From positions 1 through 49,980 of the IMG/VR virus record IMGVR_UViG_3300042731_003506: 49,980 bases of DNA. The stretch is one strand, 5' to 3'. Positions 5,796-49,980 of this stretch are shown piece after piece (positions within the stretch are counted from its first letter, which is position 1; each line of letters opens with the position of its first letter). The notes beneath the pieces are model-generated. The model was not told where the DNA came from. It saw only the letters and a list, made by a program, of their open reading frames with translations, and searched no databases. Origin of the DNA: a virus. Both the position numbers and the translations under genes were made by a program.

Positions 5796-5810
5796 CTTTT
5801 CTCTCCTTTG

Positions 5811-35006: not shown

Positions 35007-35008
35007 GA

Positions 35009-35218
35009 CTATTTGATGCTCCCGCAGGTCGAGCACACCACAAGCTTCTCGCGAACTCCCGTGCTTAGGGTTTCGCGGTATAGGCTGGCTTTGGGGGCGG
35101 CACCCTGGTAAACCTTGCGTGCCTTCTCGAAGTCGCTGGTGCATAGCATCACCACTGAAGCCGTGGTTTCGTCATCATTGTCCAGCACCAGGTACATTAT
35201 ATCATCTAATACTGCCAT
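35009..35218 (-). CDS. small protein with C-terminal CxxC, between terminase genes
   Basis: This 69-residue protein (MAVLDDIMYLVLDNDDE) ends in CSTCGSIK and stops two bases before the large terminase start. LYRETLSTGVREKLVVC is near the C-terminus. One CxxC could bind zinc only as a dimer or with a partner. Its place suggests a packaging accessory; the function is unknown. Confidence 0.65.
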   Translation of the reverse strand: MAVLDDIMYLVLDNDDETTASVVMLCTSDFEKARKVYQGAAPKASLYRETLSTGVREKLVVCSTCGSIK

Positions 35219-35840: not shown

Positions 35841-36035
35841 GGCATGGCAAAATCCCACACTCCTACCAGGCCCGCAGGAGGCGGGTTCAGGGGCTATGAT
35901 AACCATGAAAAACGCCTACTAGCAAGGAAAAAATATAACTCCAACCCCTAACCCCCCGATATCGCTACATAACCCAGGACCGCGACTGCCCCCAAAATGC
36001 CACAAGCCTGCACACCCTGGGGGCAGTTTCACGAT

Positions 36036-36242
36036 CTAGGTAGATTTATCGGAGCGGTTATGCTGGTGTCGTGCTATGCGCAGCTTCCAGCATTGTGGAA
36101 ACTGCTCGCTCCCCGCCTTGATCAGTTCGCCCTGCACCACATCACTAATCGTCTGAATCCCTATGGTGTCGTACAGGTACGCAAAGTCCTGATCCGTTTC
36201 CGGAACGATATACAACCCCAAATGACTAATATCAACCCGCAT
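36036..36242 (-). CDS. small hypothetical protein
   Basis: This 68-residue protein starts at MRVDISHLGLYIVPETD, after an AAAGGGGG site; the longer frame to 36347 overlaps the upstream gene and is less likely. It resembles a short mixed alpha/beta domain and is not recognised. Downstream lie about 195 non-coding bases before the terminase block, in which I see no strong element. Confidence 0.6.
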   Translation of the reverse strand: MRVDISHLGLYIVPETDQDFAYLYDTIGIQTISDVVQGELIKAGSEQFPQCWKLRIARHQHNRSDKST

Positions 36243-36256
36243 TTTTATACCCCCTT

Positions 36257-36988
36257 TCATTTTGGTAATAGGCCCACAGCCCACACCGACCTCACATATA
36301 CCCCATGCACCATGCAGGCAGGCAAACGCCCTCGCCATTCCACCCACCGCTCAGCATCACGCCACCTGCTCCCGTTTGCTTTGGCCCGCATCCAGGCCTC
36401 CACGCCACCGCCAGTCACCAGCTCGGCCAATTGTGGTCCACTCATCTCGGTCAAGCGGGCTTCCGTACCATCGCGGTGCATATGCCATCCGGTTTTTACC
36501 CTGGTAGGCATCCATTCTGCCAGCAAGTATATCACATCCAATGGTAGAAGCACCACCCCCACCAGCCCAGCCCCCAATGCTTCCACCAGCTCCCATTCTG
36601 TGGCATAGGTGGCTGTCATCCGTTTTAGTCCATGTATCACATAGGCATAATACACCTGAGGCCTGGTTAGCGGAAACACAACCCCTGTCAGCCCTGCATA
36701 GTTATGCATCTGGTGGTGGTCTATATACCCTTTATAATACCTGCTGCACCCCTTAACCTCCAGCACCAGATCAGACCCCACCTCATCCACACACCACCAT
36801 ACCAAATCTGGCTCAATATCTCCCCCTACATCTTCGCCCAGCTTACCCCCTATTACATGCTGGACATACTGCTCGCAGAAATGGCCCACCACGCACGCTG
36901 CCTGGGTGCTGTCGTTCAGTTCCTTGCCCGCTGCCATTTCAGGGAACAGGAACTGATTATAGTAGTGTTTAACCCACTCTGGCGGCAT
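36257..36988 (-). CDS. putative PD-(D/E)XK nuclease-like protein
   Basis: This 243-residue protein has a candidate restriction-endonuclease core: IEPDLVWWCVDE with Asp near 59, then LVLEVKGC with E and K near 77-79, preceded by FCEQYVQHVIGG, a helix that could carry the first Glu. This is the D...ExK pattern of PD-(D/E)XK enzymes. WRDAERWVEWRGRLPACM near the end is Trp-rich. It could degrade host DNA or trim phage DNA. The motif is short, so other folds are possible. Confidence 0.55.
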   Translation of the reverse strand: MPPEWVKHYYNQFLFPEMAAGKELNDSTQAACVVGHFCEQYVQHVIGGKLGEDVGGDIEPDLVWWCVDEVGSDLVLEVKGCSRYYKGYIDHHQMHNYAGLTGVVFPLTRPQVYYAYVIHGLKRMTATYATEWELVEALGAGLVGVVLLPLDVIYLLAEWMPTRVKTGWHMHRDGTEARLTEMSGPQLAELVTGGGVEAWMRAKANGSRWRDAERWVEWRGRLPACMVHGVYVRSVWAVGLLPK

Positions 36989-37223
36989 CCTCGCACCCCT
37001 CTAAGGGCTTCTGGCAGCAGGGGCATACGCTCACCCGCTCAAATTCCACCTCGCCCTTGCTGGCGAACAGCATATAGGCCGGGTCCCGCGAAGCCTCCTC
37101 CGCTGCCTCCCTAATATCTGCGCTCACCATAACCAGCAGCCTGCCCGCATCGCGCCCCTTGCGAGTACCCGCAGCGGTGTCCAGGACCAGGTATATCTGT
37201 ATCTTCGTCGCCCCGTTCGGCAT
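36969..37223 (-). CDS. small protein with C-terminal zinc-binding cysteines
   Basis: This 84-residue protein starts at the ATG in TGATG overlap with the upstream stop. A beta-alpha N-terminal part (IQIYLVLDTAAGTRKG) leads into a CPCCQKPLEGC cysteine cluster near 67-77. It overlaps the nuclease-like gene downstream by 20 bases. Not recognised. Confidence 0.6.
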   Translation of the reverse strand: MPNGATKIQIYLVLDTAAGTRKGRDAGRLLVMVSADIREAAEEASRDPAYMLFASKGEVEFERVSVCPCCQKPLEGCEDAARVG

Positions 37224-37612
37224 CACAGACCCCCATCGCGCCTGCGCCCTGCAATCACCTCCATAGCCAGGTACACTATGGCATCCAGCAGCTCCGCGTC
37301 CCGCTCCTGTCCGTAGCTCAGGCCATTTGCCTCCGTGATCTTTTTGATAGCCTGGCCCATGGTAAACCCATCACCCACCATAGCCCTCACCTTGAACCCG
37401 TCCTGGTCCTCGAACTTTTCTTCGGAAAGCCCGTGCCGCACCTCGCCCTTGCCCGTGGCCCGCTCCATAGCTTGGTCCAGAACCGTAGCGAGCTCCACAT
37501 AGCTGGGGTGGCGTACCCCTTTTAACTTTTCGCCACAGGTGCTGCACACAGACCATGCAGTTCCCCTAGCTACCGTACTTCCGCACGCCATACAGCTTAA
37601 ATCCTTACCCAT
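37223..37612 (-). CDS. zinc-ribbon protein with possible nucleotide-hydrolase-like helical domain
   Basis: This 129-residue protein starts at MGKDLSCMACGS, with AGGAGG six bases before the ATG; an ATG six bases upstream is too close to that site. CMAC and CSTC form a zinc ribbon. The helical remainder (EKFEDQDGFKVRAMVGDGF and ERDAELLDAIVYLAMEVI) is reminiscent of phage dATP/dGTP diphosphohydrolase N-terminal or MazG-like helices. The resemblance is to the helix pattern only and is weak. Confidence 0.6.
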   Translation of the reverse strand: MGKDLSCMACGSTVARGTAWSVCSTCGEKLKGVRHPSYVELATVLDQAMERATGKGEVRHGLSEEKFEDQDGFKVRAMVGDGFTMGQAIKKITEANGLSYGQERDAELLDAIVYLAMEVIAGRRRDGGL

Positions 37613-37853
37613 CACCATCCTCCTCCCGCAGGCTTACCCTGCGCAGCTCCAGCAAAGGATTATCCTCTGCTGCCCATTTTGCCTGCAACTCACGCATCCG
37701 ACCGTCGTGCTTCTGGCAGGCCTCCCAGTCCCCGACCGGGCCATCCTCGGCGTCGGGGTCTCGCACCCACCACACCTCCCAGCGGGCCACCGAAACCCCC
37801 TGACATGGCCCGCTGCCATCCTTATACATGCAGTCACAAACACCATCAGCCAT
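37605..37853 (-). CDS. small acidic cysteine-containing protein
   Basis: This 82-residue protein begins MADGVCDCMYKDGSGPC at a TGATG overlap with the clamp-like gene. Four cysteines and a His (C-x-C, then C, C near the middle with QKHDGR) could bind a metal. WEVWWVRDPDAEDGPVGDW is Trp-rich. No family recognised. Confidence 0.6.
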   Translation of the reverse strand: MADGVCDCMYKDGSGPCQGVSVARWEVWWVRDPDAEDGPVGDWEACQKHDGRMRELQAKWAAEDNPLLELRRVSLREEDGDG

Positions 37854-38569
37854 CACCGCACCACCTTGCGCCCACGGGCACCCCCGCCCTCATCATCGCT
37901 GCCCCTGCTCATCTTTACCTCCCAATCGCTATCATCCAGCCATTGACCTTTGGTAGTAAGGCCCATTAACAGCCCGACAGCGTGCTGTCCCGTGGCGTAG
38001 TTAATGGCCCGCATCACCATAGCGTCCTGCTCGCCACCGAACTCAATAAACACCGTGTTATCGCCACCAGGGTCGGGGCAGGCTGCATCCAGCACCTTGA
38101 GCAGGGCTATGAGCTTGCGCCTGTTTACCGCTATGCGCCCCCGCACCGCAGCCCCCCGCGCCATGCACACCTTGCTCCTCCAGTCTGGATACTGCCCCAT
38201 CAGGGATGGTGCGCTTACCCGCTGCATCATCTTCTTGCCCGCGGTGCATAGCTCCACCTCGCCCCCCACCGCATCGGTCAGGGCAGCATACTGCATGGCC
38301 TCCGACCCGGCCCCTCGCGGAAGGTTCTTCAAAGCCTGGCGCACCACGTCCGCATCGGCCGTCACACCCCCCGCAGGCACCGCTGCCATCGCGCCCACAT
38401 TAGGAAAATGCACTAGGGACTGGGGGGCGGGTTCCACTGCCAGCATCGCGTGCTTATTGTTCGCCACCGTAGACCCATCGGCAGCAATATGCACCCCGGT
38501 AAATATACCATCCTGCGTATCACCGCTGGCGATCTCCACCACCACCATGTTCGATTTACTTAAAAACAT
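37853..38569 (-). CDS. putative DNA sliding clamp-like protein
   Basis: The 238-residue protein resembles shortened beta-clamp (DnaN-like) proteins. FTGVHIAADGSTVANNKHAMLAV near 23-45 matches the clamp strand pattern with gVhi..dg..vAtd.h.la. GRIAVNRRKLIALLKVLDAA near 144-163 resembles the start of the third clamp domain, and VMRAINYATGQHAVGLLMGL near 185-204 resembles the C-terminal end of clamps (usually LLMPM/PMR). A complete clamp has about 370 residues, so this would be a shortened version. Such a clamp would tether DNA polymerase A. It is the first gene after the AT-rich repeat region. Confidence 0.5.
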   Translation of the reverse strand: MFLSKSNMVVVEIASGDTQDGIFTGVHIAADGSTVANNKHAMLAVEPAPQSLVHFPNVGAMAAVPAGGVTADADVVRQALKNLPRGAGSEAMQYAALTDAVGGEVELCTAGKKMMQRVSAPSLMGQYPDWRSKVCMARGAAVRGRIAVNRRKLIALLKVLDAACPDPGGDNTVFIEFGGEQDAMVMRAINYATGQHAVGLLMGLTTKGQWLDDSDWEVKMSRGSDDEGGGARGRKVVR

Positions 38570-38660
38570 ATACCCCTCCTTATTATTTAGACACCGCCGC
38601 GCTTCTAAAATTATAGCCTACCGTATGCGAAATTTTCTATACCGCATACGAACTCAGCAA

Positions 38661-38690
38661 CCTATAATTAGATATAATTAGGTATAATTA
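38661..38690. repeat. three 10-bp AT-rich iterons
   Basis: CCTATAATTA, GATATAATTA and GGTATAATTA stand head to tail with a period of one helical turn. The opposite strand at about 38742-38770 reads AGGTATAATT and AGATATAATG, so the array is mirrored around the palindrome centred at 38722. Confidence 0.75.
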
Positions 38691-38710
38691 ACCGCGCCCC
38701 ACCCCGCGTC

Positions 38711-38733
38711 GAACATTAAAATTTTTAATGTTC
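38711..38733. repeat. perfect AT-rich palindrome at the centre of the iteron region
   Basis: GAACATTAAAA (38711-38721) and its exact complement TTTTAATGTTC (38723-38733) flank a single T. It could bind a dimeric protein or extrude as a cruciform. Confidence 0.75.
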
Positions 38734-38927
38734 ACCACCCCTTTCATTATATCTAATTATACCTAATTTAGATATAGTTATAGCTCTTAACCATCCGTTT
38801 TCATTACACACCCCGTCAAATGCCCGACAAGGCCCGTTTAGAGCCATGAAGGTGCCAGTATAGCCTATTTTCATAACTGCCCATTTTCATTGATAGTTAT
38901 TTCCGGTTTTCTAAACCTAAACGGGCC

Positions 38928-39383
38928 TTACAAGCCATTACACAGCCCCATTTCATTCCCCCACTCGCCCCTGCATACCTCGTGCCAGACCAAGTCTGCG
39001 ACTTGGTCTGCCCAATTCTCCACGGGCTGCACACCCCTAAAACACTCCACCAGGCGCACATGCTCTTGCCAATAGAAGGGCATATTATCGTCGTCCGATT
39101 CTTTGAATCTGATACACAGTATAGGCTTGCCCCAGGCGTCGGCCATACCCAATTCCCACCACGTTCCGCGGTACCCAGGCACTAAACCCACCACCACCTG
39201 GGCAAACTGGACGCCCATCCTCTCAAGCTGGCACGCCACCTCAATAGGCACCAGTTTATACTCAGCCATCCAATCATAAGTACAAGACCACCCCTTCCTT
39301 ACCAGCGCATCACGGAGGCACTCCACCCGCAACCTATCCTCATCGGTCTCGCTACCCCCTGCCAGATAAAAATTAACTCCCAT
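38928..39383 (-). CDS. nucleoside 2-deoxyribosyltransferase-like protein
   Basis: This 151-residue protein has the family pattern: MGVNFYLAGGSETDEDRL at the N-terminus, a DWM segment near 37-39, QVVVGLVPGYRGTWWELGMA near 62-81 with Glu near 77 in the usual nucleophile position, and GKPILCIRF. Such enzymes swap bases on deoxyribose, and relatives hydrolyse nucleotides. In phages they adjust nucleotide pools or take part in defence and anti-defence. It lies just before the iteron region. Confidence 0.75.
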   Translation of the reverse strand: MGVNFYLAGGSETDEDRLRVECLRDALVRKGWSCTYDWMAEYKLVPIEVACQLERMGVQFAQVVVGLVPGYRGTWWELGMADAWGKPILCIRFKESDDDNMPFYWQEHVRLVECFRGVQPVENWADQVADLVWHEVCRGEWGNEMGLCNGL

Positions 39384-39604
39384 TACAGCTCCCCATCATC
39401 ATCGCCAGATTCGTCAGCGAATGCAGGTATGGGTTCCATATCGCGCAGGGCCTCGGCTTCGTCCGCCAGGCAGCGGTCCACATATTCCTCAGCGTGCCTG
39501 CCCAGCCTGCCACACCCCCCATCATTCTCCACCCGCCTGACCGCCTCGCGCCACACGCCCCGCAGACGCCACAGCCTGGCACGCAACCTGGTGCGCTCGT
39601 TCAT
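39383..39604 (-). CDS. small helical hypothetical protein
   Basis: This 73-residue protein starts at MNERTRLRARLWRL, in an ATGA overlap with the upstream stop. The N-terminus is a strongly basic amphipathic helix and the C-terminus acidic (ADESGDDDGEL). No family recognised. It shares one base with the deoxyribosyltransferase-like gene. Confidence 0.6.
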   Translation of the reverse strand: MNERTRLRARLWRLRGVWREAVRRVENDGGCGRLGRHAEEYVDRCLADEAEALRDMEPIPAFADESGDDDGEL

Positions 39605-39927
39605 CGCGCCAGCCTTCCAAACCGACGGGTCGCATCGATAGCATACCCCCGCACCCGCAGGTTCCCGATAAAAGCCGCCCATAGCTGTGGGCTAACCCCG
39701 ACGACAAACAGGCGACGCTTGTAAGGGGTGCCGGACCCTTCCAAGCTATCCAGCTCCACCCGCTCGGCCTTGCTGATGAACAGCACATCCACCAGGGCCT
39801 GCATATGGTCCCGCGACCCCACCGTGTTCCCGCATAGCATTACGCTCCCGACACGACCTCGTGCCGGGGGCGTATACTGTATGCCAGCCACCTCGCCATC
39901 TTTCCGTACATAGTATTTCTCGCGCAC
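39601..39927 (-). CDS. hypothetical protein
   Basis: This 108-residue protein probably starts at the GTG at 39927 (VREKYYVRKDGEVAG), seven bases after AAGGAGG that lies within the upstream stop region. IQYTPPARGRVGSVMLCGN and KRRLFVVGVSPQLWAAFIG suggest a mixed alpha/beta domain. Not recognised. Confidence 0.6.
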   Translation of the reverse strand: MREKYYVRKDGEVAGIQYTPPARGRVGSVMLCGNTVGSRDHMQALVDVLFISKAERVELDSLEGSGTPYKRRLFVVGVSPQLWAAFIGNLRVRGYAIDATRRFGRLAR

Positions 39928-39929
39928 AC

Positions 39930-40355
39930 CTACACCTCCTTCAATCCGCACCCGCTACGCATGGCAGCATCGCACACCGCGCAGTTCTCCTCCGATGGTT
40001 CCAGGTTACGGGCGCACTCGGGCACCGCCTCCGACGAAGCCCCGGCCTCGCCCGCGCAGGCGCAATGCTGCTTCAAAAGCCTGGTTATAAGCTCGCCATA
40101 TTCGTCAAGGCCTTGCTCCACCATCATGAACATAACCCCCAGCGCCATCGTCACCCGCGCCTTCTCCTCGCCAGCGGGCACCCCAATGGGCTCCACCGCA
40201 GCGTTAAACGCAGCCACCGATAAGCTATGCAGCACGCCCGCAGCCAGGCCGGTGGCGTCAGCAGCCTGCTCCAGGTAATCCTTAACCGACCACCCCTCCC
40301 GGTCGCCATACTTGGCATCCACCAGTTTACCCAAGTCCTTTTCGTAACCAGCCAT
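39930..40355 (-). CDS. hypothetical protein with cysteine-rich C-terminus
   Basis: This 141-residue protein starts at MAGYEKDLGKLVDAKYG, after AAAGGAGG. The first 90 residues are helical (VTMALGVMFMMVEQGLDEYG). The end has seven cysteines (CACAG, PECARN, CAVCD, SGCG), so it may bind zinc. It is directly downstream of palindromic element copy 2, so it may be the first gene of a transcript that starts there. Not recognised. Confidence 0.65.
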   Translation of the reverse strand: MAGYEKDLGKLVDAKYGDREGWSVKDYLEQAADATGLAAGVLHSLSVAAFNAAVEPIGVPAGEEKARVTMALGVMFMMVEQGLDEYGELITRLLKQHCACAGEAGASSEAVPECARNLEPSEENCAVCDAAMRSGCGLKEV

Positions 40356-40373
40356 TCTAAACCTCCTTTCATA

Positions 40374-40514
40374 CAAAATGCCCAAAGAGCCCCCCTCCAC
40401 CCCCTCCAAATTTCGTGGGCTTGCCCACCTACTAATAGTAGGTATTATTATGGCATTTTAATATATGGTTTACAAGGTACCGGGGGGGTGGAGGGACCCT
40501 CTTTGGGCATTTTG
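40374..40514. repeat. conserved palindromic element, copy 2
   Basis: Arms CAAAATGCCCAAAGAG (40374-40389) and CTCTTTGGGCATTTTG (40499-40514) are a perfect 16-base inverted repeat. After three mismatches the stem continues with CCCTCCACCCCC (40393-40404) against 40484-40495. Inside are hairpins GTGGGCttGCCCAC (40415-40428) and CCTACTaatAGTAGG (40428-40442), ATGGCATTTT at 40450 and GGTACC at 40476. The blocks match copy 1 at 11540-11673 in order. It lies in the 268-base gap upstream of the gene at 40355; the rest of the gap shows nothing more. Confidence 0.8.
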
Positions 40515-40623
40515 CGTAAGCCCCCGAAATCGTGAGCTTTCCGATTCACACTCTCTAAAAAAACACCCCACAGCATCCCCTCCATCACTGGCACCTAAAA
40601 AGCCCTATTAAAACCCCCCACAA

Positions 40624-40962
40624 TTATCGGACCTTGCCCATTTTTACCGTCACCTGGCGAACCGGGTCGCCCGGACCGATGTCTACCTGGCGGGCCAGGT
40701 GCAGCCCTTTTCTCCCCCTGCCACGCCCTGGGAGCACTATATCAATCCAGTACACCACCCCCTCCGACAAATGCACCCCCATCCCTGGGAACTGAAAGTT
40801 CACCCACCCCGCACGTCGGCGCACCTCCCTGGGATGTGGCCCCACCGCCTCAGCCAGCATCACCGCATCCTCGATGGTGTCGCCCATTAACAGGCGCACG
40901 CGAAACTTCTGTTTCGCGTGCTTCTTTCGGTGGCGTTTACGGCCTCTCACAATCCACCCCAT
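40624..40962 (-). CDS. small basic hypothetical protein
   Basis: This 112-residue protein begins with a very basic stretch (MGWIVRGRKRHRKKHAKQ), then has a beta-rich domain (GWVNFQFPGMGVHLSEGVVY). It overlaps the DUF4031-like gene by 26 bases. A nucleic-acid contact is possible. It ends just before the gap with palindromic element copy 2. Confidence 0.65.
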   Translation of the reverse strand: MGWIVRGRKRHRKKHAKQKFRVRLLMGDTIEDAVMLAEAVGPHPREVRRRAGWVNFQFPGMGVHLSEGVVYWIDIVLPGRGRGRKGLHLARQVDIGPGDPVRQVTVKMGKVR

Positions 40963-41275
40963 TTATAGGCAGCGGCCCATATTCCGGAATACATAGTGCC
41001 TTCGCCTTTTCCAGCGGCTTGTGGCATAGGTCGACGTGCTGGTAGGGGGTGCCTCTTTCGCTTATCACCACCCGCTTCACTCCCAGGGCACGAGCGGTGC
41101 GCTCCAGCAAGTCGGCATCCTTGTGCATAAGGTGGCCCCACTCCTTGGCAGACTTGAAGCACTTGGGAGCATCTGGAAAGGCCCCGTGCATTGCCGGGTA
41201 CACATGGAGGGCCATGCCTCCCTCTTGCGCATAGGCTCTCGCTTCCCTAACCTGTTTAGTCGTGAACAGCTTCAT
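40937..41275 (-). CDS. DUF4031-like protein
   Basis: This 112-residue protein resembles DUF4031 proteins: WGHLMHKDADLLERTARALG, then GTPYQHVDLCHKPLEKAKAL, in place of the family's hLm.Dt.eELh.fA...G and hYDLtp..r..A. The function of DUF4031 is unknown; it often appears in phage genomes near small regulatory or nucleotide genes. Confidence 0.65.
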   Translation of the reverse strand: MKLFTTKQVREARAYAQEGGMALHVYPAMHGAFPDAPKCFKSAKEWGHLMHKDADLLERTARALGVKRVVISERGTPYQHVDLCHKPLEKAKALCIPEYGPLPINGVDCERP

Positions 41276-42670: not shown

Positions 42671-42952
42671 TTATTGCACCGCAGGCTTATCCCCGTGGGG
42701 ACACTCCGCAGCCCCCGCATCGCTTATGCCCACAGCATAGATATCCATAGTTATGGTCATGCCCCCGGCCCGCTGCTCGTTTTGGATATACCGCAGGCTA
42801 AACATACACCCACAGCCCAGGCATTGCAGGTGGTGGTCATCCCCAGGCCCACTACCCTGCACCAGCACCCACGAGCTTAACCTGTGCCCTTTGGCCTGGG
42901 CCTGTGCCTCCACCTGGGCCTTGTAATCCCTAACTACTTTCGCCCGGTCCAT
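42671..42952 (-). CDS. small zinc-binding-type protein
   Basis: This 93-residue protein starts at MDRAKVVRDYKAQVEAQ inside the end of the methyltransferase gene. CLGCGCMF near 51-58 and CPHGDK near 84 could make a zinc site. Overlap by 23 bases suggests that it is translated with the methyltransferase half. Not recognised. Confidence 0.6.
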   Translation of the reverse strand: MDRAKVVRDYKAQVEAQAQAKGHRLSSWVLVQGSGPGDDHHLQCLGCGCMFSLRYIQNEQRAGGMTITMDIYAVGISDAGAAECPHGDKPAVQ

Positions 42953-43496
42953 CGTCCGGCTCCAGCAGTCCCGGCAAGTCCGCCACAGGCAGCGTGGTCG
43001 GGAACACCATCTTAATCTTCCTGGGGTCCCCTTTATAGAACACCAGCAGATTCTGGTGAGCCTTGCCCAGCTTTCGACCCAGGGAGAAAGGCTTACCCGC
43101 ACGCACGGGCAGGCTGCCCACGGGCGTTATAAACACCCCCTCGTTATACAGGGGGCACCCCAGACTCTGCATTAACTTGATGGTATCGGGCACAAACCCG
43201 TGGCAGGCTCCGAATTTGCCCCGCAGCTCGCCCACTACGATGACCACGAAACGATTGTTTCGCAGTCGCGCCACCGCCCCCGCCATAGCAGCCCCAAAGC
43301 CACGCATGAATTCTTCATACGTGTCGGCATTGCTTAGGTCAGCGGGGTCCTCGCTATACCGCTCCAGGTCGTAGTATGGCGGGCAGGTAAACACCAGGTC
43401 CACCACCTTGCGGGTGTGGTACTCACCTTCGAGAACCTTATCCATTTCGGTGGCGTCGCCCACCACCCACATGGGGTCCACAAATTCCTTGCTCAT
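42930..43496 (-). CDS. DNA methyltransferase, C-terminal catalytic half
   Basis: This 188-residue protein starts at MSKEFVDPMWVVGDATEMD, after AGGAGGAGG, with an ATGA overlap to the radical SAM gene. It carries motif IV, TCPPYYDLERYS (P39, P40, Y41), followed by the conserved EDPADLSN, a VVIVVGELRGKFGACHGFV segment, then PVGSLPVRAGKPF and RKLGKAHQNLLVFYKGDP. These are exactly the later parts of phage ParB-methyltransferase proteins. It lacks the AdoMet-binding motif I, which is in the protein coded at 46004-46954. The two probably work as one split enzyme that methylates adenine or cytosine N. Confidence 0.85.
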   Translation of the reverse strand: MSKEFVDPMWVVGDATEMDKVLEGEYHTRKVVDLVFTCPPYYDLERYSEDPADLSNADTYEEFMRGFGAAMAGAVARLRNNRFVVIVVGELRGKFGACHGFVPDTIKLMQSLGCPLYNEGVFITPVGSLPVRAGKPFSLGRKLGKAHQNLLVFYKGDPRKIKMVFPTTLPVADLPGLLEPDDGPGESS

Positions 43497-45163
43497 AGCA
43501 TTGCCTCCTCCTGTTGTATGGCCTCCCGCACAGCCTCCTGCACAGGCCCCACCGCCCTGGGTGCAGGGGCAGCCACCACCGCCTTATTCGACGCCCCCCC
43601 GTGCGCCAGGTCCTTAACCGTAACCACCGCACCAGCCACGCCCAGGCGCAGGCACAGCATCTCTGCCATGTATTTGTAAGGGGTGGGCCGGAACATATTG
43701 CCCGCAATGGTCACCTCGCCTATGTGATCGCCCAAACCTATGTCGAGCTTAAACCCGGCCTTTTCAAATATATCAGCCATAACCTCAAACCTATCCCCAA
43801 ACAGGCGCACACCCATCTCCGCAGCCATGCCCACCGCCCGCAGCCTGGTCTTGAACCTGCGAATATGATCCCATGCCAGGTCGCGGGTGTCGGGCGTCCA
43901 GAAGCCCGATAACCGCCAGTCGTAGGTGTCGTCGATTATGCCCCTGCTAATGAACTGCCTGGTTATCTTAGTCCCTGGGTACAGCTTCAAGTTATTGGGG
44001 CGCACCGCCACCCCCATGCGCCCAAACCGCACCAGGTCCCGCGCCAGGCTTTCCAGGGTATCGCCGGGCAGCCCTACGATGTAGAACATGCGTGGCACCA
44101 CTTCCGAAACCCTGCACTCCTCCAAAGCCTCCTTCAGGTGGCTGGGTTGATAGGGCTTCTGCACCGCACGCCTGGCCCCCTCGTTCAGTGATTCCATGCC
44201 CAGGGCTATGTTAACAAACCCCGCTCCCTGGAGGGCAGCCATAACCCCCGGCTTGCTGGCAATGCGAATTTCGATGCCCTCTTCGACATAGAAGCGGGAG
44301 GTGGGCGGGATAAGCTCGTGCGCTTTGGCGTAGTTGATTGCTTTCAGCACCACCTGAACGGAACGGTTGTCAATAAACAGATTGTCATCCAGGAAGCAAT
44401 AATAGCCCACCCCGTGCTGCCCCAGGTTAGCGAGTTCCTCCACGATGTGGCTCATGTCCTTGCGCCTATGGTTCCGACCATGCACCGTGTGAACGCTGCA
44501 ATATGAGCAATGATATGGGCACCCCCTTGCCACCGACAGCACCCCGCGAACCCTGCCCTGGGCATTTGGGTACTCGTCCAAGTCCACCAGGTTCCAGTCC
44601 GGCACTGGCAGGCTGTTTAAGTCTTCCACGGGCAACCCCTTAATTATAGCAGGCTCCTGCATACTTTTATCGAACCGCTGCATCGCCGCAGCGAAGGCCG
44701 CCCCCGCCGCCCGCTCGCCCTCGCCCACCACCACCACCTGGGCACCAGTGCCTTCGGCCACCTGCCTGGGAGCGGTGGTGGCGTAGGCACCCCCTACCAC
44801 CAGGGGGGCCTGGACGCTTATAAAGCGTCCTAGATCGAACACGGTTTCGAAGAGGTTGCATTGCCCACCCATAAGCCCCACCACATCGAAACCTTTCAGG
44901 TTCTCTTCGAGCCACTTGAAGCAGTCCTGCATAGGCCACCCATAGTGGACATAAGGTGGTGCGTGCTTACCCGCGAACACCGGAGGGCGCACCGCTTCGC
45001 GATGCTTTTGCGGTGGCACCAGGAAGTCTTTGATAACCACATCGTGCCCACCCTTTTCCCGCAGCACCGTGCCCAGCAGCACCGCTGCATACGGCATGGG
45101 ATACAGGTCCGCCACCAGCGCATCCGTGGTGCGCCAGGGTGGTACTACCAATAATATCCGCAT
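43493..45163 (-). CDS. radical SAM enzyme with N-terminal B12-binding-like domain
   Basis: This 556-residue protein has a Rossmann-like cobalamin-binding-type domain (about 1-150: ILLVVPPWRTTDAL, VGLMGGQ, APLVVGGAYATT, VVVGEGE), then a radical SAM core with ARGCPYHCSYC (C215, C219, C222) for the 4Fe-4S cluster. DDNLFID near 259-265, LGMESLNEGARRAVQKPY and MFYIVGLPGDT follow the class B pattern. The last 120 residues, with TIAGNMFRPTPYKYMAEM, are not a family I recognise. Such enzymes methylate or rearrange unreactive carbons. It needs host AdoMet, iron-sulfur supply and perhaps cobalamin. AAAGGAGG precedes its ATG, and it lies between the methyltransferase halves. Confidence 0.85.
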   Translation of the reverse strand: MRILLVVPPWRTTDALVADLYPMPYAAVLLGTVLREKGGHDVVIKDFLVPPQKHREAVRPPVFAGKHAPPYVHYGWPMQDCFKWLEENLKGFDVVGLMGGQCNLFETVFDLGRFISVQAPLVVGGAYATTAPRQVAEGTGAQVVVVGEGERAAGAAFAAAMQRFDKSMQEPAIIKGLPVEDLNSLPVPDWNLVDLDEYPNAQGRVRGVLSVARGCPYHCSYCSVHTVHGRNHRRKDMSHIVEELANLGQHGVGYYCFLDDNLFIDNRSVQVVLKAINYAKAHELIPPTSRFYVEEGIEIRIASKPGVMAALQGAGFVNIALGMESLNEGARRAVQKPYQPSHLKEALEECRVSEVVPRMFYIVGLPGDTLESLARDLVRFGRMGVAVRPNNLKLYPGTKITRQFISRGIIDDTYDWRLSGFWTPDTRDLAWDHIRRFKTRLRAVGMAAEMGVRLFGDRFEVMADIFEKAGFKLDIGLGDHIGEVTIAGNMFRPTPYKYMAEMLCLRLGVAGAVVTVKDLAHGGASNKAVVAAPAPRAVGPVQEAVREAIQQEEAML

Positions 45164-45177
45164 GGCTGCCTCCTTTG

Positions 45178-46014
45178 CTATGCGGTGGGCCTTATGCCCA
45201 CAATCCAGAACAGGTCACCTGGTAACAGGTGCTCCACGCATTTAGCCTCGTAGTACGGGTCCAGATTGATGTCGTTGTCGCCAAGAGTATCAAAAGGCCA
45301 TTTAACTGGCTTGTCATACGGTAGTGATGCCAGTGTCAGCGTAACCACCTTGCTCCAGTATGATGGGCACCATTTGTCCAGACTCTTATGGGGGTCCTTT
45401 CCTATACATACCCCCAGGATAGGTATGTGTGCCAGCACCTTCTCCCGGTCTGTGATTGCCCCCCGTGCTGTCATTGCCCAGGCCATACCCCGCATTATAC
45501 CTGCCAGGCTTAAACCCCCACCCACCACCACCACGATGCGCTTGAACTTACCCCAAGGCAGATTCTTTATCTGGTGGGCTGTACCCTGCACCGCCATCTC
45601 GCTTTCCATGCTCATGGGCACAAACCGCCAGTAGCGTTCCTCGGCATCATCCATGGCATACTTGCGCAGGTTATTCATATAACCAGGGCGGTGCTGCACT
45701 AGGGTGGCACCAGCTTTTTCCGCAGCAGTCATTTCGGGCGTGTACCCCCCGTGCGCCGTATGCACCCGGCACGGTATGTCCAGGGCCTTGCACACCAGGC
45801 TGGTATAGTTCATCTGCGGGCTGGTCCTGCTGGCATAGGTCACAGCCCCCCTCGCCAGGTTGCCCTCGACCCCAAGCATCTTCGCGCAGGTGCGCACCTT
45901 GCCACCCCGTGCGCCACCAAAGCTGAACAAATCGTCACGCTTCATCCAATATTTGCCATCCAAACGCTGCACGGGCGTTAACGCATTGAGGTCGTTTGTG
46001 TACTTATTGCTCAC
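45178..46014 (-). CDS. PLP-dependent enzyme, ACC deaminase / cysteine desulfhydrase-like
   Basis: This 278-residue protein resembles fold type II PLP enzymes. KYWMKRDDLFSFGG followed by GGKVR (K39 as candidate Schiff-base lysine) matches the wvKRdDl...GGNKvRKlE start of ACC deaminase and D-cysteine desulfhydrase. ASRTSPQMNYTSLVCKALD is the substrate-site segment and VVVVGGGLSLAGI near 161-173 the phosphate-binding Gly loop. It starts at a GTG with GGAGG upstream, overlapping the ParB-methyltransferase half. It may make an amine or act on an amino acid attached to DNA; the substrate is unknown. Confidence 0.8.
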   Translation of the reverse strand: MSNKYTNDLNALTPVQRLDGKYWMKRDDLFSFGGARGGKVRTCAKMLGVEGNLARGAVTYASRTSPQMNYTSLVCKALDIPCRVHTAHGGYTPEMTAAEKAGATLVQHRPGYMNNLRKYAMDDAEERYWRFVPMSMESEMAVQGTAHQIKNLPWGKFKRIVVVVGGGLSLAGIMRGMAWAMTARGAITDREKVLAHIPILGVCIGKDPHKSLDKWCPSYWSKVVTLTLASLPYDKPVKWPFDTLGDNDINLDPYYEAKCVEHLLPGDLFWIVGIRPTA

Positions 46015-46954
46015 CTTGCCACCTCCGTTTCACTTCGAGCAATTGCTCGCGGTTCGCAGCGACTTGTCGCTGCGAAAGGTCCACCCCCACATACTGGAGG
46101 CCCAAGCAGGCAGCCACCACGCCCCGCACTGAGCCCCCCGCAAAGGGGTCCAGCACCACGCCCCCTGGGGGGCAGAACCAGCGGTAAACCAACTCGCACA
46201 GCACAGGATCAAAGATTGACGTCGTAACCCAGGTCTCCACGTCAGCCCCCCCAGTCTGCACCGTGCGTGCGCTGCCCAGGCTTTCCTGCACCTCTGCCCG
46301 GCCCAGCTCGCTCATGATACCCAAACCCAGCCACGCCTTCTTCCGGTCGCGCCAGTACCCCTGACGGCCGTCCAGCACGCTGAACGGGGGCACGCCAAAA
46401 TCCTGAGCTAGTCCGCCTTTGCGGACTGGGTCAGCAGAACCCGTTAGCCCACCGATCTCGCCCTGGGTGAACCCAGTCATCCGCTCCACCGCAGCCATCC
46501 CGTGCTCGTGCTCCCACCGCTCCAGTATTTGGCCCAGCTTAACCTTGTCCCATTTGGCCTCCTCACCCAGGCGGTTATCCGCCAGGCTAAACGCCTGGGC
46601 CTCCTCCTCATTTTCGAAGTCCTGGTACATGACCGGCACCAGCGTTAATCCCAGGATTAACGCTGCCTTCAGCCTGGTGTGCCCAGCCCGCACGGTGCCA
46701 TCCCTGGTGGCGACTATGGGCACCCGGAAGCCTTTGCTGCGAATCTCCTCCGCCAGCTTTGCAGCAGCCTTGTCGTTCGACCTGGGGTTATCCGCCCAGG
46801 GCACCAGCTCGCTGGGGGCCACATACACAATTTCAAGTTCGCCCAGGTCCCTGGGCTTGGCAGCCCTAAGCTCGGCCTGCTCGTTTGCTGCCTTTGCCTT
46901 GCGCTGCTGCGCTAGCAGTTCACCCACGGTTAGCCCTTTGCCTTCTTCTGCCAT
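46004..46954 (-). CDS. ParB-like domain plus methyltransferase AdoMet-binding half
   Basis: The 316-residue protein starts with a ParB/sulfiredoxin-like domain (about 40-140: ELVPWADNPRSNDKAAAKLA, DGTVRAGHTRLKAAL). The last 90 residues are the first part of a DNA methyltransferase: FDPVLCELVYRWFCPPGG, then VLDPFAGGSVRGVVAACLG (motif I, AdoMet binding) and YVGVDLSQRQVAANREQ. It then stops, where phage relatives continue in one chain to the CPPY motif. The missing part is the gene at 42930-43496. GGAGGAAGAGG precedes the ATG. Confidence 0.85.
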   Translation of the reverse strand: MAEEGKGLTVGELLAQQRKAKAANEQAELRAAKPRDLGELEIVYVAPSELVPWADNPRSNDKAAAKLAEEIRSKGFRVPIVATRDGTVRAGHTRLKAALILGLTLVPVMYQDFENEEEAQAFSLADNRLGEEAKWDKVKLGQILERWEHEHGMAAVERMTGFTQGEIGGLTGSADPVRKGGLAQDFGVPPFSVLDGRQGYWRDRKKAWLGLGIMSELGRAEVQESLGSARTVQTGGADVETWVTTSIFDPVLCELVYRWFCPPGGVVLDPFAGGSVRGVVAACLGLQYVGVDLSQRQVAANREQLLEVKRRWQGEQ

Positions 46955-49041
46955 TCCTCTTCCTCCTTGTATATTTCCAGCGGGCGCATAACCCGCACCA
47001 TGCTGGGGTTAATTTTCCAATGCCCGCCCATGCCCCCGGCATCCTGTCGCTGTAACACATGCAGGCTGGTCAGATCATTTAGCAGCGTGCGACACGTTTC
47101 GGGGTTCAACCTGGTAAGCTCCACCACCTCGCTGGTGGGTATGAAGTCTTTAATGCCCCCATGCAGCCATAGCCTGCGCAGTATTTCTTCCACCCGGTCC
47201 GGCACCGTATCCCGTGCCACACGCACCAGCAGCCTGTAATGATCCTCGGTTAACTTGTCCGCCTGGTGGTACATGCCCAGGCCCAGGCCCAGCTTCGCGA
47301 GCTGCACCCCTATGCGACTTCCAATTTCAGCCACGGGCTTGAACAGCATTTCCCTGGTGTACTTTTCCCGAACCACCACCGCACGGGTGGCTGCCACCCA
47401 TTGCGCCAGCCCCACCAGCTTCTTATGGAAGGGGGCGGATATTTTGGGCAGCCTGGTGGTGTCTATTTCACGGTTAAGGGCTTTAATAGCCACCTCTTGC
47501 AGTTCCGCCCGCATAATGTTTTCATTAGCTATGTTACCAATGGCCCGCGATATTACATCGGTCCCCACCGACACCCTACCTGGCAGACGTATACGGTACC
47601 GCAGGAACCGCTCACCCAGGCTGGCGTGAACGCCCGTGAACATTTCAATGGCAGGGGTAACACCCGCTACCATACCGAATGTGCTGTGGTACCTTTTAAC
47701 CAGGCCCGTTCCGAAATACTTAGTCGTCTCCCCGTCGTAGGCATCCCGCAGCACGCCCAATATCTCGTCCCGTGCCGACTGGTTCATACTTAAGATGCTG
47801 GTAAAGTCCTTAATGACAAGAACTTTACCGTCCAGCTTGGGTATAAGGCTGGGGTCGCCACCCCCAGGACCCACCGCCCCGCTCACCAGAGCGTGGGGGG
47901 TTAAGCTGGTGGTGGTCATAATATGGGGAGCTTTACTTAGCGACATCAGCATGGCACTCTTGCTGCCCCCTGGCGGTGCCACCAGGAACAGCCACAGGGG
48001 GTCGCCTGGCAGCCTATTGCCCAGCAGGGTGGCGAACAGTATGTCCAGGGGCTCGGGGTTAGGTAGATGCAGCCACCTGCGGTATGCCTTAACCACCTGA
48101 TCCCGCGGTAGCCCCGGCCCTGGTGCCATAATAGGTGCTGTCGCTGCGTCTCTCGCCCCCTGCGGGCCCTTTTCAAGCCCCTCCTGCCCCATACCCCTGG
48201 GTTCGGCCCGAAGTCCGTGATGTAAGGCTTCCAGCGCAGCTTCCGGACTACCAGCATTTAAATACAGGTCCCGAAGGTCAAACTTATTAGGCAGGCTTTC
48301 GGGCCACCACATCGCCCGTAAACTACGGGCGATTCCCTGAAGCATAGTCCAGGCTTTGGCCTCGCCCCTTATACCGCTGTCATCATGATCATACACCAGC
48401 ACCACATCGCGCCCTGTCAGCTCACCCACCCATTCCTTCTTAAACGTGCCCGCGCCCGTCACGCCCAGCACCACCGCCTTAACCTTGCAAGCCCTAAATA
48501 TTTCATCAAGGGCCATGCCATCCCACTCTCCCTCACATATATACACGGGCCAGTCGGGGTGGGCAGCCAGGTGCTCGTAGCCCACCAGCCATACCGTGGC
48601 CCCAGGGGTAGTCATTGTTTTCTTTCCTGGGTTAAATATGCGCAAGTCCATCAGAGTGTGTGGTCCCCGCACGGGTATGGTGTAGACCCCACGAGCCTGG
48701 TCCCATCCCACACCCCACCTACGCAGGGTGTCAGGTTTTAAGCCACGGTTATCGCGCAGGCGCAGCATGGGCTTGCCTTTAATCGCGGAGGCGTTTGCCC
48801 CCGCGACCAATTCAAGGAACCTGCCAAACCCCCCAGCCTCTCCGCACCGCTGACATTTCCATTGCCTGTTATCGGCGTTAATATACAGAGTGTGCAGATG
48901 TCTTTCGCTACTGCCACAGAAGAGGCAAACTCCATAAGCCTGGTCGCCGTTGGGATTGGCAGATATACCAGCGAACCGCACCCCGTGGGCTGCGAAGCCT
49001 TTGAGCTTTGGGTGGGCCTTAATTATTTCGGCGTGCGCCAT
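46930..49041 (-). CDS. primase-helicase
   Basis: This 703-residue protein has a primase zinc ribbon (C39, C42, C63, C66), a TOPRIM domain with YICEGEWDGMAL (E170) and VVLVYDHDDSG (D218, D220), and a helicase-like AAA+ part with a Walker A variant APPGGSKSA at 354-362 and a Walker B-like GKVLVIKDFTS. A winged-helix-like end (IKDFIPTSEVVELTRLNPET) follows. It would synthesise primers and unwind DNA for the neighbouring DNA polymerase A. The ATG is 22 bases inside the upstream gene; its end overlaps the ParB-methyltransferase start by 25 bases. Confidence 0.88.
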   Translation of the reverse strand: MAHAEIIKAHPKLKGFAAHGVRFAGISANPNGDQAYGVCLFCGSSERHLHTLYINADNRQWKCQRCGEAGGFGRFLELVAGANASAIKGKPMLRLRDNRGLKPDTLRRWGVGWDQARGVYTIPVRGPHTLMDLRIFNPGKKTMTTPGATVWLVGYEHLAAHPDWPVYICEGEWDGMALDEIFRACKVKAVVLGVTGAGTFKKEWVGELTGRDVVLVYDHDDSGIRGEAKAWTMLQGIARSLRAMWWPESLPNKFDLRDLYLNAGSPEAALEALHHGLRAEPRGMGQEGLEKGPQGARDAATAPIMAPGPGLPRDQVVKAYRRWLHLPNPEPLDILFATLLGNRLPGDPLWLFLVAPPGGSKSAMLMSLSKAPHIMTTTSLTPHALVSGAVGPGGGDPSLIPKLDGKVLVIKDFTSILSMNQSARDEILGVLRDAYDGETTKYFGTGLVKRYHSTFGMVAGVTPAIEMFTGVHASLGERFLRYRIRLPGRVSVGTDVISRAIGNIANENIMRAELQEVAIKALNREIDTTRLPKISAPFHKKLVGLAQWVAATRAVVVREKYTREMLFKPVAEIGSRIGVQLAKLGLGLGMYHQADKLTEDHYRLLVRVARDTVPDRVEEILRRLWLHGGIKDFIPTSEVVELTRLNPETCRTLLNDLTSLHVLQRQDAGGMGGHWKINPSMVRVMRPLEIYKEEEEWQKKAKG

Positions 49042-49210
49042 TCTGTATATCCAAGCAGGCTAACACCTGCATCAGCTCATCTCGGTTAAAATGGGCACGG
49101 GGTTCCCTGGGAGCAGGTAAACCCACCTTGTGACAGATTTTGCTAACTAGCTCGGCCTTGCCCAGCTTCTTGGGCTTGCGCCGACGCCTACGCTGCGTTG
49201 CCGGTTCCAT
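49019..49210 (-). CDS. small basic protein between polymerase and primase genes
   Basis: This 63-residue protein starts at MEPATQRRRRRKPKKLG, after a strong AAAGGAGG site. The N-terminus is very basic, then LGKAELVSKICHKVGLPAP and FNRDELMQVLACLD form helices like a small SAP- or HeH-type DNA-binding domain; that is an impression only. It overlaps the end of the polymerase gene and the start of the primase gene. Confidence 0.65.
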   Translation of the reverse strand: MEPATQRRRRRKPKKLGKAELVSKICHKVGLPAPREPRAHFNRDELMQVLACLDIQNGARRNN

Positions 49211-49980
49211 ATATATCGACCTCCTTTGTGTCCGCCCAATGGCATGTCGCCACCCTGCATTCCACGGTAAACTCAACCGTGAACAGGTCACCGAAATCGC
49301 ACATCAGCTCGGCTATGTCCCGTAACATGGCGGGTGCTTGAGGCAGCATATCCCTGGGCCATTCGATAACAATCTCGTCGTGTATGGGCAGCACAATGCC
49401 GGCAGCCCCCCCAGTCATGTCCTCCAAATACTTATCCACCTTGACCTGGGCACGTTTGAGCATACCTGCGCCCGTGCCCTGGATGAGGTAGTTTGTGGCA
49501 GCGTAGGGCATATCCCTGGGCACATACAGCCTGCGCCCGAATGCTGTTTCGATATAACCCAGTCTCCGCACCTGGTCCATTAACACGTTCGTCAGGTTGC
49601 AATACTTGGCGAACTTGCTGCGGTACTCGCGCAGCCTGGGCATACCCACAGCGGGGGGCAATTGCAGATTCAGGCAGGCGGTTTTATCGCTGCTGCCATA
49701 GGGTATGCCAAACGACATCGCGCCCTTTACATTATGGCGCAGCCCCTTCTTGCGCACGGGGTCGGGGCACAGGCTAAAGTCATCGCGGTACGCTATAACC
49801 GCTCCAGCATCGTGTATGGCTCCAGGGCCTTGCGTGTTAACTATTTCGAGCATGGCCCTGTCACCGCTGTAATGCACCAGCAGCAGGGCCTCCTGCCCTG
49901 CGTAGTCGATCAGGAACCAAACGTAGTCATATTTAGGTCCAAACAGGTGCCGGGCGGGTACTGGAAAACGGTTAGTCAGC
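49188..49980 (-). CDS. polA: family A DNA polymerase, C-terminal part (gene continues at the start of the window)
   Basis: This part holds residues 359-598 of the polymerase; the 70 bases beyond 49910 repeat the start of the window. Motif A is IDYAGQEALLL (D360, E365). Motif B is RHNVKGAMSFGIPYG, with R416, K420, F425 and Y429. The thumb-to-finger segment YAATNYLIQGTGAGMLKRA and motif C PIHDEIVIEW (H535, D536, E537) complete the active site. The spacing K-x4-F in motif B is one residue longer than the usual K-x3-F/Y. It ends inside the start of the small basic gene. Confidence 0.95.
   Translation of the reverse strand, partial: LTNRFPVPARHLFGPKYDYVWFLIDYAGQEALLLVHYSGDRAMLEIVNTQGPGAIHDAGAVIAYRDDFSLCPDPVRKKGLRHNVKGAMSFGIPYGSSDKTACLNLQLPPAVGMPRLREYRSKFAKYCNLTNVLMDQVRRLGYIETAFGRRLYVPRDMPYAATNYLIQGTGAGMLKRAQVKVDKYLEDMTGGAAGIVLPIHDEIVIEWPRDMLPQAPAMLRDIAELMCDFGDLFTVEFTVECRVATCHWADTKEVDIYGTGNAA
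49911..49980. repeat. terminal direct repeat, right copy
   Basis: These bases are identical to bases 1-70; see the left copy. Removing one copy restores one continuous DNA polymerase gene. Confidence 0.97.

Follow-up and report, generated by a model that had tools for sequence, protein, structure and literature searches.

A DNA methyltransferase divided between two genes, with a PLP enzyme and a radical SAM enzyme encoded between its halves, was analyzed in a viral DNA record (IMG/VR record IMGVR_UViG_3300042731_003506, positions 1 to 49,980; this whole stretch of 49,980 nucleotides is called the window). In dozens of phages, a homologous PLP enzyme forms the middle of the methyltransferase chain itself, so the parts probably act together, jointly placing an unusual chemical mark on phage DNA. 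At a probability of a little under 60%, we favor the reading that the locus encodes a phage DNA-modifying complex, in which the split methyltransferase, a docked PLP enzyme and an added radical SAM enzyme would give a hypermodified base.

A methyltransferase split into two intact halves

All four open reading frames were confirmed on the minus strand (Table 1) and are transcribed in the order N half, PLP enzyme, radical SAM enzyme, C half. They are tightly packed, as the first-pass annotation had described: the N-half and PLP genes share 11 bases, which they read in different frames, and the start of the C half overlaps the stop of the radical SAM gene by 4 bases. Each of the four starts is preceded by a Shine-Dalgarno sequence of its own (AAGGAGGAAGAGGA-ATG, GGAGGTGGCAAG-GTG, AAAGGAGGCAGCC-ATG, and AGGAGGAGGCAATGCT-ATG), including a GGAGG site 7 bases 5' of the PLP gene start and a strong ribosome site for the C half.

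Table 1. Genes and motifs of the locus, with positions in the window
Feature	Position	Strand	Remarks
ParB domain and methyltransferase N half (motif I/II part)	46004..46954	-	316 aa; PHROG_498, PHROG_12517, ParB_N, N6_N4_Mtase
SAM-binding motif I, DPFAGGS	46130..46150	-	read from sequence; 144/~158 family members
PLP enzyme, fold type II, ACC deaminase / D-cysteine desulfhydrase-like	45178..46014	-	278 aa, GTG start; PALP
Codon of Lys39, predicted PLP Schiff-base lysine (GGK)	45898..45900	-	93/93 relatives
YEAKC motif, PLP enzyme (cf. YEGK of ACC deaminase)	45238..45252	-	Y 97%, E 97%, K 98%, 93 relatives
B12-binding-type radical SAM enzyme	43493..45163	-	556 aa; Radical_SAM and B12-binding
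CxxxCxxC (CPYHCSYC) iron-sulfur motif, radical SAM enzyme	44498..44521	-	read from sequence
Methyltransferase C half, catalytic motif IV onwards	42930..43496	-	188 aa; PHROG_498
Catalytic motif IV, CPPY	43374..43385	-	Cys-PP-Y in nearly all of ~160 family members

The ParB-domain gene had been described as carrying motif I, and the last gene as carrying CPPY and the later segments; the profile positions agree. The N half matches PHROG_498 (E 1.1e-50) and positions 26-152 of PHROG_12517, and the C half matches positions 453-609 of PHROG_498 (E 5.6e-49) and 160-308 of PHROG_12517; on the latter profile, about 7 positions separate the two matches. Because these positions are complementary, the two halves together tile one methyltransferase. 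The window thus matches PHROG_498 across its ParB, motif I, and CPPY parts, with the halves not in one chain. In Pfam, the N half matches ParB_N and the C-terminal part of N6_N4_Mtase; against PF01555 the N half scores 25.5 and the C half 16.5, relative to a gathering cut-off of 26.7, each half representing a partial profile. Single-chain relatives share 46-51% identity with the C half in their C-terminal parts. The motif IV pattern [DNS]PP[YFW] is not matched, as Cys takes the place of D/N/S in the window and in nearly the whole family. Between the halves, the PLP protein passes the PALP profile (E 5.8e-9) and the radical SAM protein lies above the Pfam cut-offs for Radical_SAM (3.1e-14) and B12-binding (1e-8), in keeping with their original description as ACC deaminase-like and B12-type enzymes.

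A profile of uninserted relatives finds the solved homologue TTHA0409 (2zie; E 2.6e-12) with the C half first and then the N half, and this swapped order places the insert site at the chain ends of the canonical enzyme. By this comparison, the protein is a circularly permuted amino-methyltransferase, which points to adenine or cytosine, at the exocyclic amino group, as its target rather than to thymine C5.

The halves are intact, as first proposed. Compared with 26 fused relatives, the window proteins retain 81 of 91 invariant residues; the N half has lost no invariant or near-invariant residue, and the ten losses fall in the PLP protein (nine, sparing the catalytic Lys and the YEAK motif) and the C half (one). 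Furthermore, the gene borders coincide with linkers of the fused relatives. It is very unlikely that this is a decaying methyltransferase, broken by insertion of the radical SAM gene and now non-functional. The arrangement was found in one genome only, and the nine deviations of the PLP protein would fit decay, but the frames are open, the borders are clean at the linkers, the starts are coupled, and motifs I and IV, the PLP lysine, YEAK, and CxxxCxxC are all intact. An error of assembly or sequencing in what is really a single-chain gene is hardly credible as an explanation. Given their overlap in different frames, one indel could separate the N half from the PLP gene, and a comparable frameshift is seen inside the C half of one relative (L170); yet the PLP gene and the C half have ribosome sites of their own, and they are separated by a complete radical SAM gene of 1,671 bp that has a start, a stop, and a ribosome site to itself, which is beyond one indel.

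Fused relatives and coupling to the PLP enzyme

A homologous PLP enzyme lies in frame inside the methyltransferase, at the point where the window's protein is split, in 55 phage loci (53 of subfamily A and 2 of subfamily B). These comprise environmental contigs and the phages Pam4, ZS04, and R6L; Pam4_70 and ZS04_7 were read directly, and the relatives' records are mostly fragments. The window's PLP protein is 39-45% identical to the subfamily-A PLP domains inside fused methyltransferases. Most PLP-bearing relatives form one chain, running ParB, N half, PLP enzyme, C half, and in sequence terms the window is a separate-subunit version of this ParB-methyltransferase-PLP chain. The split is not unique to this phage: another locus (L032) is split independently, and the position of the PLP enzyme has dozens of fused counterparts.

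Among cultured phages, Pam4_70 (Pseudanabaena phage Pam4) and ZS04_7 and R6L gp1 (Erythrobacter phages) share with the window ParB, methyltransferase, and PLP parts in the same order and with the same insertion point, but they are single chains of ~810-830 aa, and the radical SAM gene is absent from the stretches read. The annotation of Pam4_70 names the PLP enzyme only. Phages Mae-JY30 (Microcystis), B054 (Listeria), and Vincenzo (Mycobacterium) have methyltransferases of the same PHROG_498 family, with family-typical CPPY and DPFAGGS; unlike in the window, nothing is inserted between the halves. In Mae-JY30, the PLP gene, annotated as methylase, adjoins the methyltransferase.

A search with the PLP enzyme alone gave 80 loci, and the methyltransferase was present in 74 of the 80 records, including records where the PLP enzyme is a separate neighboring gene or an end fusion. 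In the converse search, the PLP enzyme was found in none of 48 records with a PLP-less methyltransferase (positive control, 7 of 7). On the family tree the insertion state changes 25 times, with at least five changes forced by supported branches, indicating repeated gain or loss, and the catalytic residues of both enzymes are kept family-wide. Taken together, the in-frame insertions, the co-occurrence, and the repeated gain or loss mean that, at the level of sequence, functional coupling of methyltransferase and PLP enzyme is well supported.

These observations also bear on a different explanation, in which a plain DNA methyltransferase with a permissive insertion point carries metabolic cargo, and both cofactor enzymes would serve host metabolism and not DNA. 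The insertion point does appear structurally tolerant, lying at natural chain ends; various unrelated modules occupy it, with an intein nearby in L151, and the methyltransferase often occurs without a PLP enzyme. Such cargo is nevertheless rather unlikely, as the PLP-only query leads to the methyltransferase even where the PLP enzyme is a neighboring gene or end-fused, and a cysteine-rich module (see below) has the same methyltransferase partner. Furthermore, the PLP family has no matches in 72,556 plasmid records, and its two matches in a bacterial genome collection are each fused to the same methyltransferase.

In a predicted model of a fused protein, the PLP domain resembles 1j0a, an ACC deaminase homologue (Z 25.9), and the ACC deaminase structure 1tzk (Z 24.3); the VIA-align rows for this model span the PLP domain only, so the absence of methyltransferase rows is uninformative. 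The phage PLP family shares its fold (Z 24-26), PLP lysine, and YE motif with ACC deaminase and D-cysteine desulfhydrase, but identity in the fold comparison is 21-24% and the family has SPQ, not SNQ. Within the PLP alignment, the top-scoring sequence (E 4.1e-6) falls short of the cut-off of the ACC deaminase equivalog TIGR01274, and the window's protein has no match to this profile at 0.001. As a single query, the window's PLP protein gave no match in viral contigs.

A modular slot after the PLP enzyme

In the slot after the PLP enzyme, other phages have a cysteine-rich DUF3109-like domain and the window has the radical SAM enzyme. The order N half, PLP enzyme, cysteine-rich domain, C half occurs in L061, L116, L160, L164, and L190; this module has at least eight invariant cysteines, and of 13 loci retrieved by a search seeded with it, 12 contain the methyltransferase. 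A PP-loop gene lies between the halves of L032, and in phage Alsa_1 a PP-loop relative adjoins the PLP gene. Judged from these arrangements, the third slot is modular. L170 was considered as a second partial split and rejected, as it has a frameshift inside its C half.

The radical SAM protein does not reach a named subfamily (the best score, to TIGR04072, is 95 bits where 360 are required), and its predicted structure (pLDDT 48) was set aside. As a single query it had no match in viral contigs or genomes, and a two-sequence alignment found only Streptomyces-phage-type relatives of 21-26% identity, which are without methyltransferase, PLP, and cysteine-rich genes. A tblastn match in MT835673 turned out to be a HemW-like protein. 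No second methyltransferase-PLP-radical SAM locus was found in the viral contigs and genomes searched. Since the exact four-gene order was met in no other searched genome, the link of the radical SAM enzyme to the other two is one of position only. The proposal that both cofactor enzymes are coupled to the methyltransferase, and co-occur with it elsewhere, is thus upheld for the PLP enzyme and, so far, not for the radical SAM enzyme.

The content of the slot is also relevant to a sulfur route, in which the PLP enzyme, acting like a D-cysteine desulfhydrase, would release sulfide or activated sulfur, and PP-loop, cysteine-cluster, or radical SAM partners would place it on base or backbone. By sequence the best match is D-cysteine desulfhydrase, which is also tied with the ACC deaminase homologue as nearest solved fold; the PP-loop genes of L032 and Alsa_1, the invariant cysteines of the cysteine-rich module, and a PAPS-reductase-like gene nearby in Erythrobacter phages point the same way. 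The route is unlikely, however, as the neighborhood survey gave no obligatory sulfur partner, YEAK resembles YEGK of ACC deaminase and not the desulfhydrase form, and B12-type radical SAM enzymes are distinct from the sulfur-inserting MiaB-type. When 1,931 neighboring ORFs were clustered to look for other obligatory companions, no additional recurring modification enzyme emerged. Of the remaining neighbor families, the one with the widest spread occurs at 64 loci and resembles terminase and further structural or replication genes, as judged by reading and not by scanning families individually.

Proposed chemistry and known modification systems

For the DNA-modifying complex that we favor, the single chain would have been resolved in the window into three translationally coupled subunits. 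The N half would bind SAM through motif I and the C half would bring CPPY, and the two would have to reassemble, with the PLP enzyme docking at their junction and the B12-type radical SAM enzyme added in the slot that holds the cysteine-rich domain in other phages. ParB and methyltransferase would choose and flip the target base, and a SAM- or amino-acid-derived group would be placed on its exocyclic amino group. The PLP enzyme may then act on the amino-acid moiety by deamination, elimination, or replacement, and the slot enzyme, here the radical SAM enzyme, may further tailor the adduct. A hypermodified DNA base is our best inference for the product, and it would protect the phage genome against host nucleases. 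Since many members of the methyltransferase family do without a PLP enzyme, the core may perform plain methylation.

More tentatively, and at somewhat less than even odds, these proteins could be modular ‘modification synthases’ with one composite active center, where a PLP enzyme within a DNA amino-methyltransferase would help to transfer or rework an amino-acid-derived group on the base, and the final structure of the adduct would be set by a third module that can be exchanged (cysteine cluster, PP-loop, or B12 radical SAM). Such an adduct on a DNA base would belong to a new class. A synthase of this kind would also be the first methyltransferase known to us in which a PLP enzyme is embedded in the catalytic fold. 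If the proposed role is correct, a methyltransferase and PLP machine for DNA modification is spread over dozens of environmental phages, in proteins whose present labels are ‘DNA methyltransferase’, ‘PLP enzyme’, or ‘hypothetical’. The split version would then be a natural two-chain amino-methyltransferase and would reveal chemistry that a B12 radical SAM enzyme can add. The cultured phages Pam4, R6L, ZS04, and Mae-JY30 make DNA modification testable by mass spectrometry.

The literature searched gave no description of ParB-methyltransferase-PLP proteins; Iyer et al. 2013 reportedly predicted phage systems with modified SAM derivatives, which may partly cover them. Thymidine hypermodification in phages such as M6, SP10, and ViI, the analogy drawn at the outset, involves PLP and radical SAM enzymes. 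These pathways proceed from 5-hydroxymethyl-dU, use a DNA base kinase, and are not known to include a split amino-methyltransferase. As first noted, no thymidylate hydroxymethylase or DNA base kinase is seen among the ~27 larger ORFs scanned in the record, which ends inside a DNA polymerase gene and may be incomplete. Hypermodification remains a likely role, but with an amino-methyltransferase and neither of these enzymes among the scanned ORFs the thymidine analogy is weak. Natural two-subunit DNA methyltransferases such as M.AquI and M.EcoHK31I also assemble from two chains; unlike the enzyme of the window, they are C5-cytosine enzymes and are not known to have other enzymes inserted between the genes.

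The CmoA/CmoX/CmoY system, which makes carboxymethylcytosine, is similar in that a phage methyltransferase goes beyond plain methyl transfer and is followed by a second tailoring enzyme, with ParB-domain genes nearby in many contigs, but it is without a PLP enzyme (PMC12783734). CmoX is a cytosine-C5 enzyme with an SPPC motif that uses carboxy-SAM, and a preliminary search in the same paper gave no N4/N6 counterpart (PMC12783734). The window's methyltransferase is not CmoX-like, as its CPPY stands in an amino-methyltransferase context and not in an SPPC C5-cytosine enzyme.

Layout of the cassette and the split methyltransferase

The 49,980-bp window (IMG/VR) is from a tailed phage whose larger genes lie on the minus strand, among them a cassette of four genes. 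A strong Shine-Dalgarno site precedes each cassette start. As read from the window sequence, the N-half and PLP genes overlap by 11 bases, 14 bases separate the PLP and radical SAM genes, and the radical SAM and C-half genes overlap by 4 bases.

Genes of the window that identify the phage and its cassette
Feature	Position	Strand	Remark
Terminase	33228-35144	-	
Portal	30838-33240	-	
Major head protein	27781-29094	-	
Helicase	6340-7764	-	
DNA polymerase, partial	49188-49877	-	
Primase/helicase-like gene	46930-49041		four-gene cassette downstream of it
ParB + methyltransferase N half	46004-46954	-	cassette gene
PLP enzyme	45178-46014	-	cassette gene
B12-type radical SAM protein	43493-45163	-	cassette gene
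Methyltransferase C half	42930-43496	-	cassette gene

The first-pass annotation described a methyltransferase divided between two genes, and this is confirmed: the split is real. In profile comparison with PHROG_12517 (methyltransferase-like, 316 positions), the halves occupy complementary positions, 26-152 for the N half and 160-308 for the C half, and both match PHROG_498 (each E about 1e-50). Alignment with 26 single-chain relatives places the window gene borders in the two linkers of the fused chain, the first between ..AANREQ and LTPVQ and the second between WIVGIR and PxWxxGD. Against the same relatives, no conserved residue is missing from the N half; one invariant residue has been lost from the C half and nine from the PLP protein, whose catalytic lysine and YEAK motif are spared. 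A sequence error in a single-chain gene could account at most for the frame change between N half and PLP, but it is not sufficient for the split, because PLP and the C half are separated by 1.67 kb of radical SAM gene carrying signals of its own, beyond any such error. Taken singly, reassembly of the two halves is very probable.

Catalytic motifs, fold and the point of insertion

The PLP lysine is 100% conserved in 93 subfamily-A sequences, in which the motifs SPQ, GSG and YEAK reach 92-100% per residue. Of about 158 methyltransferases in the family, 144 have DPFAGGS as motif I, and nearly all have CPPY as motif IV; the norm at motif IV is D, N or S, and a cysteine there is unusual. One fused methyltransferase-PLP protein (L151, 7593-10400) carries an intein-like insert exactly at CPPY (FT / C...HN / CPPY).

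The predicted model of a fused relative (L104, 761 aa) has pLDDT 78 and pTM 0.61, with both enzymes mostly above 85. Its PLP domain resembles ACC deaminase homologue 1j0a (Z 25.9), D-cysteine desulfhydrase 4d99 (Z 25.5) and ACC deaminase 1tzk (Z 24.3), followed by serine dehydratase and TrpB (Z about 21). When TTHA0409 (2zie) is compared with a profile of uninserted methyltransferases, residues 25-102 correspond to the C half and 224-269 to the N half, an order that shows the family to be a circular permutation of a beta-class amino-methyltransferase. The point of insertion and splitting thus coincides with the chain termini of the canonical enzyme. This correspondence accounts for the tolerance of the fold to an insert as well as a split, and it is also what speaks most for the rival view of the insertion point as a 'permissive site'.

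Association of the PLP enzyme with the methyltransferase

Coupling of the two enzymes is strongly supported by in-frame insertion, co-occurrence and repeated gain or loss, and is by itself highly likely. In Pseudanabaena phage Pam4, Pam4_70 is a single 829-aa chain (ParB - N half - PLP - C half) whose PLP part is 41% identical to that of the window; despite being such a fusion, it is annotated as a PLP enzyme only. The layout recurs in Erythrobacter phages ZS04 and R6L, whose PLP parts belong to a more distant subfamily. Among 173 loci pooled from separate methyltransferase and PLP searches (slightly fewer are independent, as L009/L128, L022/L125 and L039/L124 are the same three contigs twice), PLP lies in frame between the halves in 53 subfamily-A and 2 subfamily-B loci, is a separate neighbouring gene in about 32 and is fused terminally in a few; only the window encodes N, PLP and C as three separate genes.

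A PLP-only query, built from inserted PLP domains and so biased to that subfamily but not to methyltransferase sequence itself, retrieved 80 loci, with a methyltransferase on the retrieved stretch in 73 and in the full record of another (L165), giving 74/80. Conversely, none of 48 records, many of them fragments, whose methyltransferase had no PLP gene nearby carried one elsewhere; the positive control for this search recovered 7/7, distant subfamily included. The PLP family had no match among 72,556 plasmid records and two in a bacterial genome collection, both fused to the same methyltransferase. Dependence therefore runs from the PLP enzyme to the methyltransferase and not the reverse. On the methyltransferase tree (FastTree, 154 rows, insert columns excluded, many weak forks), the inserted state requires 25 changes, and well-supported branches force at least 5 of these; the insert has therefore been gained or lost repeatedly and is not a single inherited accident.

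In phage Mae-JY30 (L007, PP438422), the gene at 5534-6244 is labelled 'DNA modification methylase' and is a subfamily-B PLP enzyme. Two Erythrobacter phages (L005 and L006) have a PAPS-reductase-like gene close upstream of the fused gene.

The third slot and possible hypermodification

The position after PLP and before the C half is occupied in other phage loci by a cysteine-rich domain, distantly DUF3109-like, with at least eight invariant cysteines. Its arrangements are N-PLP-Cys-C (L061 at 1189-1761, L116, L160, L164, L190), N-Cys-C (L052, L081) and N-C-Cys-PLP (L146, L155, L181), and it is a neighbour in L129, L143, L156 and L157. Four scanned copies matched no Pfam family above cut-off. 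Used alone as a query, the domain retrieved 13 loci, 12 with the methyltransferase, and it appears dedicated to the methyltransferase-PLP system.

Nor is the split unique to this phage: in L032 (3529-6627), three genes encode the N half with the cysteine-rich domain, a PP-loop ATPase-like protein and the C half, an independent split of the same family around an enzyme gene. The PP-loop identity is a reading of an SGGKDS-like motif, with no Pfam match. Staphylococcus phage Alsa_1 has a PP-loop relative (E 1e-22) immediately upstream of its PLP gene, and a DNA methyltransferase is also near.

The window radical SAM gene occupies the same slot. Searches of viral contigs and genomes with the radical SAM protein found no second locus with radical SAM in the cassette, and from its position the chances that it takes part in the pathway are about even. 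In Streptomyces phage SF3 (L004, 5410-7984), a B12-type radical SAM gene directly precedes thymidylate kinase and MutT/NUDIX genes and could belong to another nucleotide modification cassette; its family is also found in related contigs L175-L180.

The initial proposal, that a split enzyme and two cofactor enzymes produce a hypermodified base, thus stands for the split and the PLP coupling, while radical SAM is linked by position and hypermodification itself is our best inference (probability of the whole about 0.57). Judged from the methyltransferase class, the target would be an exocyclic amino group, on either adenine or cytosine. The PLP enzyme may act on DNA, on SAM or on an unbound amino acid. 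Thymidine hypermodification also uses PLP and radical SAM enzymes; however, it requires 5-hydroxymethyl-dU, genes for which were not seen among about 27 larger ORFs scanned in the window. Phage DNA modification usually serves as a shield against nucleases, and the window cassette may do the same. In the CmoA/CmoX/CmoY system (PMC12783734), a phage methyltransferase using modified SAM is paired with a further, tailoring enzyme, and genes with ParB domains lie near; that methyltransferase, however, belongs to another class, and the system involves no PLP enzyme.

Elsewhere in the window, 4871-5440 (minus strand) encodes a uracil-DNA glycosylase superfamily protein (PF03167, 1.5e-18), and 38928-39383 (minus strand) weakly resembles nucleoside 2-deoxyribosyltransferase, under the Pfam cut-off. 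The scanned genes at 36000-41000 have no clear family, and GC skew there is strong, at about -0.3; elsewhere in the window, as far as 36 kb, it is about -0.1.
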